A stretch of DNA of 64,000 nt from Flectobacillus sp. BAB-3569 (GTDB taxonomy: Bacteria > Bacteroidota > Bacteroidia > Cytophagales > Spirosomataceae): assembly GCF_002270355.1 (NCBI RefSeq), contig NZ_NJFZ01000003.1:160307-224306 (forward strand), written 5' to 3'. Each line of letters opens with the position of its first letter. The first letter of the stretch is position 1. This document shows positions 56,572 to 63,295 of the stretch, in pieces. Both the position numbers and the translations under genes were made by a program. The notes beneath the pieces are model-generated. The model made no database searches. It saw only the letters and a list, made by a program, of their open reading frames with translations, and was not told the DNA's origin.

Positions 56572-57336
56572 GTAAAATATTAGGCATTCGGCTTTCAGCT
56601 ATCGACATTCAGTAATAAGTAATCATGCAAAATAAGATTTAAGTTATGTGTTTAGGCACTAGGCAACAGGCACAAGGCAAAGAGTTTTAACATGTTTTTA
56701 AATAACTACAGATATATTTTGCCGAAAGCCCAAAGCTGAAAGCCAAAGGCTCAAAAATTAAATTTTATTTTGCCCACCAACTTAAGTAATTGTGCAAAAT
56801 AATATTTAATCAACAGAAGATGTAAGGTACTGATAATTAGAATTTTACATTCATAATTCACAACTCGTAATTCAGCACTAATACTTAAGTAATCGTGCAG
56901 AATAATATTTAATTTTTCTGTTTTAGGCAACAGGCACAAGGCAAAGAGTTTTAACATGTTTTTAAATAACTACAGATATATTTTGCCGAAAGCCCAAAGC
57001 TGAAAGCCAAAGGCTCAAAAATTAAATTTTATTTTGCCCACCAACTTAAGTAATCGTGCAAAATAATATTTAATTAACAGAAGATGTAAGGTGCTGATAA
57101 TTAGAATTTTACATTCATGATTCACAACTCGTAATTCAGCACTAATACTTAAGTAATCGTGCAGAATAATATTTAATTTTTCTGTTTTAGGCAACAGGCA
57201 CAAGGCAAAGAGTTTTAACATGTTTTTAAATAACTACAGATATATTTTGCCGAAAGCCCATTGCCGAAAGCCGACAGCTAAATAGTTGAATCTTATTTTG
57301 CCTAACGCCTACAGCCTATAGCATGTAAATTATTCG
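56572..57336. repeat. 264-bp tandem repeat containing R3, upstream of metG
   Basis: Units start at 56660 and 56924 with exactly 264 bp spacing. A third, partial unit runs from 57188 to about 57258. I count four base differences between the two full units. Each contains the R3 core (56781-56900 and 57045-57164): TAAGTAATCGTGCAAAATAA, GATAATTAGAATTTTACATT, TCAGCACTAATACTTAAG. R4 words (GCCGAAAGCCCAAAGC) are also present. A 68-codon frame on the minus strand is repeated with the unit and is not a gene. 56572-56659 has further R4 words. Confidence 0.88.
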
Positions 57337-61217: not shown

Positions 61218-61241
61218 AAATATGCAGAATCCATAATAAAA

Positions 61242-61342
61242 ATAAGGACAGGAGAAGCTCCCGCCCTTATCTGTTTAACCTCTAAACCTATTTAACTATG
61301 AAAATTGATACAAATATATACCTAACGATTGGGATTTACTAA
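61242..61342 (+). other. Leader cassette 1 with a 14-codon ORF
   Basis: Hairpin ATAAGG/CCTTAT (61242-61247, 61265-61270) with inner GGAG/CTCC. It is followed by the conserved leader block (61275-61304, core CTCTAAACCTATTTAAC) ending in ATG (61298). The ORF reads MKIDTNIYLTIGIY and stops at 61342. This copy has one extra A in the block. Confidence 0.6.
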
Positions 61343-61402
61343 GAATTGTACAAATTTTTTTTATTGTGTCGCTTTGATACAAAAGGGGAGTTTTTGATGA
61401 GT

Positions 61403-61433
61403 TTTGAAAAATTGATGTATATACATATTTTTG
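61403..61433 (+). promoter_or_regulatory. Bacteroidetes-type promoter for leader cassettes 2-4
   Basis: TTTG (61403-61406), exactly 19 bp, then TATTTTTG (61426-61433), a full match to TTTG-N19-TANNTTTG. Transcription would start near 61440, about 55 bp before the cassette 2 hairpin. Confidence 0.72.
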
Positions 61434-61493
61434 GGTATGAAGTCATAATTGTGGCGAATAAGTGGAGTAAAACTAAAGGGAATAAAAACAAAA

Positions 61494-61634
61494 AAAGGAC
61501 GAAGCCAATAGCCATGTCCTTTCAAATCTTACCTCTAAACCTATTTAACTATGAAAAATAACTGCACCTTTTACAAAATCAAAAACTCTTTATCGCAACC
61601 ATCTGTCCATTCGCTACTACCTAATCGACTTTGA
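61494..61634 (+). other. Leader cassette 2 with a 27-codon ORF
   Basis: Hairpin AAAGGAC/GTCCTTT (61494-61500, 61516-61522). The invariant 29-nt block is at 61529-61557, ATG at 61551. The ORF MKNNCTFYKIKN...LLPNRL stops at 61634. It is unrelated in sequence to the other three peptides. Confidence 0.6.
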
Positions 61635-61650
61635 GTGTAAATGTTTTTAA

Positions 61651-61744
61651 AAAGTGGCGCCTTCATTGAAGACGCCCTTTCCCGTCTTACCTCTAAACCT
61701 ATTTAACTATGAAAAAAACGGTGGCCTTTGGCCAAAATCTTTGA
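61651..61744 (+). other. Leader cassette 3 with an 11-codon ORF
   Basis: Hairpin AAAGtGGCGcCTTC-att-GAAGaCGCCCTTT (61651-61680). The invariant block is at 61687-61715, ATG at 61709. The ORF MKKTVAFGQNL stops at 61744. Confidence 0.6.
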
Positions 61745-61765
61745 ATAGCTTTTGAGGAGAATTAA

Positions 61766-61958
61766 AAAGTGGCGTCTCCATTGAAAACGCCCTTTCTCGT
61801 CTTACCTCTAAACCTATTTAACTATGAAAAAAATATTTTTGAGTCTTAAATCGACTTACAAGTTTCTAATTACTAATTCTTGCAAAAACCTTTCCAAAAG
61901 TAATTTTGTAAGGAACAACAACAAGTTTTGTTTTCAGTATTTTTACTTAATAAATTAA
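61766..61958 (+). other. Leader cassette 4 with a 44-codon ORF
   Basis: Hairpin AAAGtGGCGT...ACGCCCTTT (61766-61795), with two changed pairs relative to cassette 3. The invariant block is at 61802-61830, ATG at 61824. The ORF MKKIFLSLKSTYKFLITNS... ends FCFQYFYLIN at 61958. It is the longest of the four and could be a real small protein. Confidence 0.55.
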
Positions 61959-62325
61959 CGAAAAATGAGAGTGTTTGGTTCTTTTTTTCTAGTAATAATT
62001 TACATACTGATTTTTTGACGCCTGTAACTTTTTTATGTCATCTTTCGCATTTTTAATAATTTGCTTAATCGTTGATTTGTACAAATTATTTTGCTGTTGT
62101 TTGATGATGCAAATTTCTGCAAAGTTTTTTAATTCTCCAAATGTTTTTTTTCAATTTACGAAGCTAACTATACCATAACTATTTCAAAATCAGTGAATAG
62201 TTGGATATAAGATGTAATTGTCGGTAAGCATACCAAAATAATATTTTGTTAATTGTGCAAAATACTACTGTATTATTCTGATTGTATCTTTTTGAAAAAA
62301 TGGAAAAATTCTTTAAAAAGTACAA
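61959..62325. other. AT-rich intergenic region after the leader array
   Basis: Very AT-rich, with no gene, repeat copy or convincing terminator. It separates the array from the convergent pth gene. Confidence 0.4.
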
Positions 62326-62886
62326 TTACTGATTGTATTTGTTCATCGTTTGATTTACGCCTTGAGTACAAAATGAAAGTACTATTTCACTTGCTCTATC
62401 AAGATGCTCGGGTAAAAAGGCTGTTTCTGATTCAGTAAAATTACCTAGTACATAGTCGGCTTGTCGACCCTTCGAAAAATCACTTCCAACTCCGATACGC
62501 AAACGACTATATTGTTGCGTGCCCAATAGCTCTTCAATGTTTCTCAAACCATTGTGCCCACCGTGAGAACCTTTGGTTTTTAAACGCATTTTTCCATAGG
62601 GTAGAGCAATGTCATCTGTAATAACTAGTAGATTCTCAGGCTCTATTTTTAAGTCTTTTAGCCAATAATTTACCGCTTTGCCACTTAGGTTCATATAAGT
62701 GGTAGGCTTCAATAAGTGAATTTGTTTACCTTTATGTCTAAATTCGGTATGATAGGCAAGGCGGCTCATATCGTATTTTACCTCGTGTGTATTAGCTAAT
62801 TTATCAATGACCATAAAGCCGATATTGTGACGAGTGAATAAGTATTCTGGGCCGATATTTCCTAAGCCAACAATTAAATATTTCAT
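62326..62886 (-). CDS. pth: Peptidyl-tRNA hydrolase
   Basis: A 186-residue Pth that frees tRNA from stalled peptidyl-tRNA. The start MKYLIVGLGNIGPEY holds N10, and TRHNIGFMVID holds the catalytic H20. KPTTYMNLSGKAV, VITDDIALPYGKMRLKTKGSHGGHNGLRNI and YSRLRIGVG are all conserved. The length is normal. It is transcribed alone on the minus strand. Confidence 0.96.
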   Translation of the reverse strand: MKYLIVGLGNIGPEYLFTRHNIGFMVIDKLANTHEVKYDMSRLAYHTEFRHKGKQIHLLKPTTYMNLSGKAVNYWLKDLKIEPENLLVITDDIALPYGKMRLKTKGSHGGHNGLRNIEELLGTQQYSRLRIGVGSDFSKGRQADYVLGNFTESETAFLPEHLDRASEIVLSFCTQGVNQTMNKYNQ

Positions 62887-63269
62887 TTTAATAATACTGT
62901 TGTATGTTTCTTATCCCTGCTAAATCCAATTTTTACAGATAAATGCCTCAGGGTAAATCAGGATACGAAACTGTGTTATTTATAGATTAAATGCAATTTT
63001 TATGAGATGATTTTTCTGAAGACGCACCAAATAAAAATAAATCAGTCAAAAAATGAGACTTGAGTGCCTAATTCTGCAAAAAAATCATTGAACCCTGTAT
63101 CTTTTGGTTTCAAAATCCTAATGTACCTGCTTTTTTGACAGTCAAGAGTAAAAACTTTTCAAATTCTTGCAAAACATGAACCGTCATATTGTGCGTTATA
63201 AAGAAAAGAAAGCTACTCGGTACTTCATCTAAGAGTGTAAAGCAAGGTACGCAATTGGCAAAATTAACT
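62887..63269. other. Divergent intergenic region between pth and the PD40 gene
   Basis: No gene or repeat recognised in about 380 bp. It should hold the pth promoter and part of the PD40 gene promoter. Confidence 0.4.
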
Positions 63270-63277
63270 AATTTTGC
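63270..63277 (+). promoter_or_regulatory. -7 promoter box of the PD40 gene
   Basis: TAATTTTG fits TANNTTTG, 18 bp before the ATG at 63296, implying a very short leader. No -33 TTTG is seen. Confidence 0.45.
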
Positions 63278-63295
63278 AAAGTAATTAATTGCCCA

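Follow-up and report, generated by a model that had tools for sequence, protein, structure and literature searches.

A tandem array of four units on the minus strand

We analysed a 64,000-nt stretch of the genome of Flectobacillus sp. BAB-3569 (the window), in which the block CTCTAAACCTATTTAACTATGAAAA occurs in exactly four copies at the seed positions of Table 1. Each copy belongs to a unit of about 70 nt on the minus strand, in which the seed UUUUCAUAGUUAAAUAGGUUUAGAGG (conserved 5' seed UUUUCAUAGUUAAAUAGGUUUAGAGGU) forms part of a U-rich 5' segment; a short linker then leads to a GC hairpin and a U-run, which together look like an intrinsic terminator. The first-pass annotation had described the block as identical in three copies and interrupted by an insertion in the fourth. 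All four copies are in fact exact, and the "insertion" lies just outside the core, where the block is preceded by ...GTTTAAC in copy 1 and by ...CTTAC in copies 2-4. When the first 17 bases of CTCTAAACCTATTTAACTATGAAAA were searched in the 6.6-Mb genome, the four array copies and four other sites (with 2 mismatches) were found. Four further genomes of the same genus contained 4, 4, 6 and 4 copies of the block.

In the window and in 11 further rows of our comparison (Flectobacillus, Arcicella and one Pseudarcicella), making 12 of all 67 rows, the neighbour upstream of the array is a pth-like gene at a distance of 447-656 nt; the gene was identified by Pfam in the window and by eye in the other rows. 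The interval between pth and the array has a conserved non-coding stretch (about 62070-62135) that includes TTTGTACAAATTATTT and GATGATGCAAA and is also kept in the more distant genome G003.

Table 1. Features of the array and its surroundings (positions in the window). R1 is a covariance model built from 20 chosen diverse units, the four units listed here among them; RF04319 is the Rfam model of FopS.
Feature	Position	Strand	Description	R1	RF04319
sRNA unit 1	61238..61306	-	type A, with -7 box; seed 61280-61304; terminator hairpin about 61243-61270, then U-run	71.0 bits, E 2.4e-9	23.3 bits, full length
-7 box TATATTTG of unit 1	61311..61318	-	fixed spot 15 nt before TTTCATAG		
Palindrome TGTATATACA	61416..61425		between units 1 and 2; about 100 nt from the unit 1 promoter, on its upstream side		
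sRNA unit 2	61491..61559	-	type B; seed 61533-61557; terminator AAAGGAC..GTCCTTTTTTT; GTGCAGTTATT motif in front	80.6 bits	19.7 bits
sRNA unit 3	61649..61717	-	type B; seed 61691-61715; terminator GGGCGTCTTC..GAAGGCGCC, then UUUUU	87.9 bits	25.8 bits
sRNA unit 4	61764..61832	-	type B; first in the direction of transcription; seed 61806-61830	87.0 bits	20.7 bits
Weak candidate promoter CTTG-N19-TACTTTTG	61895..61925	-	before unit 4; partly kept in sister genomes		
pth (peptidyl-tRNA hydrolase)	62326..62886	-	upstream gene on the sRNA strand; PF01195, E 1.2e-66		

The hairpins look like terminators of the minus strand

The hairpins had been noted for their apparent covariation. An alignment of the 20 chosen diverse units showed that the covariation is real, with two-sided (compensatory) changes in 10 of the 10 stem pairs; we assign this covariation to a terminator. 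On the sRNA strand, the longest T-run after the hairpin was at least 4 in 130 and at least 5 in 127 of 133 units. On the other strand, where the scanned stretch from hairpin to block was shorter (19 versus 41 nt), the corresponding numbers were 37 and 23. These 133 units are the 135 distinct units with full flanks from public genomes and relatives, minus L095 and L107, which resemble ordinary sequence without terminators; the odd unit L079 was retained. When a strict finder that allows no bulges was applied to the 135 units, it called terminators for 114 of them on the sRNA strand and for 37 on the opposite strand, and several of its misses are plain bulged terminators. Counting T downstream of the final G-C pair in the minimum free energy (MFE) fold did not separate the two strands (at least 6 T in 50 versus 42 of the 135 units), because A-rich stretches pair with the U-run. 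Most of the Aquirufa type A terminators may be bidirectional. The functional strand of the array is most likely the minus strand; it is on this strand that the hairpins are followed by the U-runs of a terminator.

Two types of units differ in what precedes the seed

Among the 135 units, 37 had the sequence TANNTTTG within 40 nt upstream, and in 36 of these 37 it was located exactly at -15. With a looser box, 45 of the 135 units were classified as type A. We take the box of the type A units to be the -7 element of Bacteroidota promoters; in the type A profile its position is fixed, whereas the -33 element of the canonical sigma-ABfr promoter is not conserved. Type B units of the same set had no -7 box and no clear promoter; 13 units had the GTGCAGTTATT motif and 29 a TTAGATTGTAAGTAGT-like start. 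The first unit was found 12-21 nt behind the stop codon of an ORF of 153-160 codons in 35 of the 67 rows. Those of the ORFs that we read look exported, and the two that were searched against Pfam had no family above the cut-off. Judging from their position, the units that closely follow such a stop codon look 3'UTR-derived.

A regulator of the type A promoter may act at the palindrome TGTATATACA, which lies between units 1 and 2. The element that contains this palindrome (61403-61433) is present at the same place in genomes G001, G002 and G003, but the G004 loci showed none. A Pseudarcicella locus has two copies of the element and an Arcicella rosea locus has one; it is absent from three other loci that we checked.

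The units recur in 14 of 36 Spirosomataceae genera

The first-pass annotation had recommended a covariance-model search for the block with its hairpin, and such a search, made with R1, revealed a family. At E<=1e-3, R1 matched 48 of 150 Spirosomataceae genomes in 14 of 36 genera, and in 10 genera the match was at least 67 bits. Between two and six copies were present in 51 of the 64 public stretches that have the exact seed core. Outside the array, R1 matched the window's genome at C45:2669 (47.7 bits) and C15:121971 (39.4 bits, E 0.0019), and a match of 45.7-47.7 bits comparable to the former was found in each of four other genomes of the same genus. When 395 genomes drawn over the phylum were searched with strict filters, the only match of R1 was in the window's own genome; therefore, R1 provides no link to the Bacteroidaceae.

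A full unit (64.5 bits) was also found on the minus strand of a viral contig from IMG/VR (L346:4718-4788), alongside genes for dUTPase, terminase and portal protein. Genus g208 has a single unit, possibly related, whose seed is changed; the four examples read scored 22.9-24.3 bits. Two other candidates were rejected as sRNAs: L149, at 33.7 bits, belongs to a coding sequence, and L150 to the leader of a gene. Three Aquirufa-type loci (L238-L240) have a seed-like unit that has no CAU and is followed by a clear terminator; in these loci the stop codon TAG of the upstream gene seems to fall within the seed.

The units resemble the FopS small RNAs of Bacteroides

According to the available part of the report on FopS (PMC11697453), Bacteroides thetaiotaomicron has 14 paralogues of this sRNA, each with a single-stranded 5' seed and a terminator. 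FopS pairs at the start codons of susC genes and thereby shuts off sugar-uptake genes; it binds the protein RbpB, which counters the repression. One member is 3'UTR-derived, one copy is carried by a phage, and conservation is reported within the Bacteroidaceae.

The first-pass annotation could match the repeats to no named RNA family, and a default Rfam scan of the whole window listed nothing. A cmscan search, however, aligned RF04319 (BTncRNA_FopS) at full length to all four units on the minus strand, with scores (Table 1) that do not reach the gathering score of 56 bits in any of the four. On two FopS-like viral loci the same model scored 55 and 39.5 bits, and R1 matched 4 of 9 FopS-like viral loci with 14.8-16.7 bits. 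When the type A seed was compared with the FopS consensus, 2 of 2000 shuffles scored as high, or 9 of 2000 with TTTTCAT held fixed. The type B seed was less similar: 21 of 2000 shuffles reached its score, and 235 did so when TTTTCAT was kept. A search for FopS in the whole genome gave at least 9 matches at E<=10, one of which is an array unit, with 150 of 1208 candidates scored.

Like FopS, the units are multi-copy and would give RNAs of about 70 nt, in which one Rho-independent terminator hairpin follows a 5' seed that is antisense to start codons and broadly has the form UUUUUCAU.GU..A..AG.UUUA.AGGU. Several paralogues per genome are found in both, here the four array copies together with C45:2669 and C15:121971. 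A -7 box (in the type A units here), a 3'UTR-derived member and a phage copy, the last represented here by the viral contig, are further features in common, as far as the available part of the FopS report goes. On the other hand, the array seed differs from the FopS consensus by two insertions, one of 2 nt and one of 1 nt, and the array belongs to another order, Cytophagales, in a genome that shows no excess of pairing at SusC starts. The units here are arranged in tandem, a word that does not appear in the available part of PMC11697453.

Two other Bacteroides sRNAs share part of this design. In GibS (RF04182), according to the available text (PMC7366714), a single-stranded conserved 5' seed likewise pairs with translation-initiation regions and a terminator forms the 3' end, but GibS is about 145 nt long and carries an additional seed (R2) as well as two hairpins in its middle part, whereas the array units consist of about 70 nt with seed and terminator only. 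BTnc231 (RF04180) has a similar 5' stretch, UUUUUUUCAUAG..UUUAGA, with a sub-threshold match of 21.6 bits; its model is 154 nt long and the match spans two array units, hence it is not a match to the unit. Literature searches on FopS, GibS, Bacteroides RNA biology and RNAs of Cytophagales or Spirosomataceae returned, among the matches listed, no such sRNA outside Bacteroides and its relatives. The array RNAs likely work like FopS and may well be related to that family; we do not claim membership.

Near-complements of the seed lie at gene starts in Aquirufa-type genomes

Near-complements of the seed were counted in genera g12, g1 and g216, for which the match lists were complete. In the 17 genomes of the Aquirufa-type genus g12, there were 22 near-complements (up to 3 mismatches) outside the arrays. 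Six of them belong to an sRNA-like paralogue without ATG; the other 16 lie at, or just before, the starts of genes whose N-terminus is of the exported type, as judged by reading. Two control patterns of the same composition that kept TATGAAA gave 4 and 1 matches versus these 16; the search pattern contains ATGAAA and therefore favours starts, and the controls share the same last seven bases. The 16 matches represent eight genes, among them a BNR sialidase-like gene (six orthologues), an esterase gene (three) and a Kelch gene (two). The Pfam families among them were BNR_2, 3keto-disac_hyd, CarbopepD_reg_2, COesterase, Kelch and Porph_ging, with one protein having none; several of these names are glycan-related, and one protein has a SusC-like N-terminal domain. 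For two units of one species and ten g12 starts, mostly from other species, the predicted duplexes ranged from -20.9 to -33.9 kcal/mol. A point against these starts as targets is that the leader of the sialidase-like gene is conserved well past the pairing site, and that this site is absent from the one homologue in the window's genome that has a readable start.

There was no such excess in the window's genus (6 non-array matches versus 5 and 1 for the controls) or in genus g216 (5 versus 12 and 5). A comparison with susC leaders, also proposed in the first-pass annotation, gave no support in the window's genome: the start regions of 52 SusC genes were no more complementary to the seed than those of 265 other genes (one-sided p 0.91 to 0.99). 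Of 56 TIGR04056 matches, 54 were fetched, with two C-terminal pieces excluded, and 52 start regions were scored; the start codons were chosen by a signal-peptide heuristic and are in some cases wrong. In the same genome, none of 100 shuffles paired with the starts of other genes as well as the full seed did. For the part of the seed upstream of the AUG, shuffles were as good or better in 91 (SusC), 42 (exported) and 17 (other genes) of 100; because this part is not better than shuffles, the general fit of the seed to gene starts comes from UUUUCAU. Since neither the window's genus nor its SusC starts showed an excess, the class of targets proposed below is transferred from FopS and from the Aquirufa-type result.

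The only near-complement with up to 3 mismatches at a gene start in the window's genome is CTAAACCTAATCAACCATGAAA, the leader of a 340-aa protein that occurs twice in this genome and once in G002 (L153, L285 and L289). No Pfam family was found in the 202 residues of this protein that were searched.

Discussion

The locus is probably a tandem array of four paralogous trans-acting sRNAs encoded on the minus strand, in which the seed would be directed against initiation regions containing AUG and each RNA would end at its own intrinsic terminator. The unit anatomy, the compensatory changes in the terminators, the -7 box of the type A units, the conservation across genera, and the extra copies in the genome and on one phage contig can be read directly from the sequences. 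From them we infer transcription of the units, pairing and repression, and a part for an RRM-1 protein. We propose that RNAs of 65-75 nt would be made from the minus strand, with the 5' end near TTTTCATAG and the 3' end in the U-run. The seed would then pair across the start codons of mRNAs for exported proteins of glycan uptake and degradation, and such pairing would keep ribosomes off the start region, as FopS does at susC in B. thetaiotaomicron. The single RRM-1 protein encoded in the genome, at G000:C34:115825, might help or antagonize the sRNAs. Having multiple copies may raise the dose, or may allow different promoters (a unit's own, or the 3'UTR of the gene upstream) to feed one seed.

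A small-RNA array was among the options of the first-pass annotation and fits the minus-strand anatomy of the units. Its main description, however, was of plus-strand leaders, each with a hairpin, a start codon and a micro-ORF, which would act as uORFs or translation-dependent attenuators. The ATG and its surrounding bases are the same in all four copies, and the promoter-like match TTTG-N19-TATTTTTG before cassette 2 is real (61403-61433, plus strand). That box is nevertheless changed in sister genomes, by an inserted T in G001 and G003 and by the loss of TA in G002. The micro-ORFs do have 14, 27, 11 and 44 codons in the window, but they are not conserved between sister species: the ORF of copy 4 has 8 codons in two genomes of the same genus, and the frame of copy 2 is shifted. 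Neither a conserved frame nor a same-strand gene further downstream was apparent from the ORFs and the gene map. For 61958 to 63289, the only plus-strand ORFs listed have 42, 47 and 61 codons, and pth is encoded there on the minus strand. In addition, the hairpins are terminator-like with their U-runs on the minus strand, and in type A units the sequence past the ATG is kept as a minus-strand -7 box. The ATG of the cassettes is the complement of the CAU in the seed, and we regard functional plus-strand leaders as hardly credible. The related idea that the blocks are leaders copied from outer-membrane receptor genes was indirectly apt, in that the block would be an antisense copy of gene start regions.

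Two other explanations accept the minus strand. The units could be sponges or decoys for the RRM-1 protein or for another RNA instead of regulators of mRNA starts, which would agree with a nearly invariant seed for which the window's genus yielded no target, with the presence of one RRM-1 protein, and with the binding of RbpB by FopS (available part of PMC11697453). On the other hand, the CAU that follows the U-run of the seed is the antisense of AUGAAA starts, and the Aquirufa-type near-complements lie at the start codons of exported-type genes, so we consider this explanation unlikely. It is very improbable that the units are bare terminators, mobile or neutral repeats without RNA function that were duplicated in tandem at the end of a gene. 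Many type B units do lie so close behind a stop codon (35 of 67 rows) that they could be the terminator of that gene, but a bare terminator has no need of a conserved seed of more than 20 nt in front of differing hairpins, an arrangement matched at 67 bits or more in 10 genera, and the type A units have a promoter box at a fixed distance.

The regulatory sRNA array, which we prefer, would provide a natural series of units in which the seed is almost fixed and the terminators vary freely, and the Aquirufa-type genomes offer concrete candidate target pairs with more than 20 nt of continuous predicted pairing across the start codon. A family with this layout, seed logic and multi-copy nature beyond the order of Bacteroides would point to RNA control of glycan uptake as a general trait of Bacteroidota. 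In a wider and rather doubtful scenario, FopS-kind sRNAs against start codons might be old and phylum-wide in Bacteroidota, having formed tandem arrays in freshwater Spirosomataceae with two kinds of promoters (their own, or the 3'UTR of an upstream small exported protein), and phage copies might tap the host's control of glycan uptake.

Another repeat of the window lies upstream of metG (56701-57224), where a tandem direct repeat has two copies 264 bp apart that are identical at 256 of 260 compared bases.
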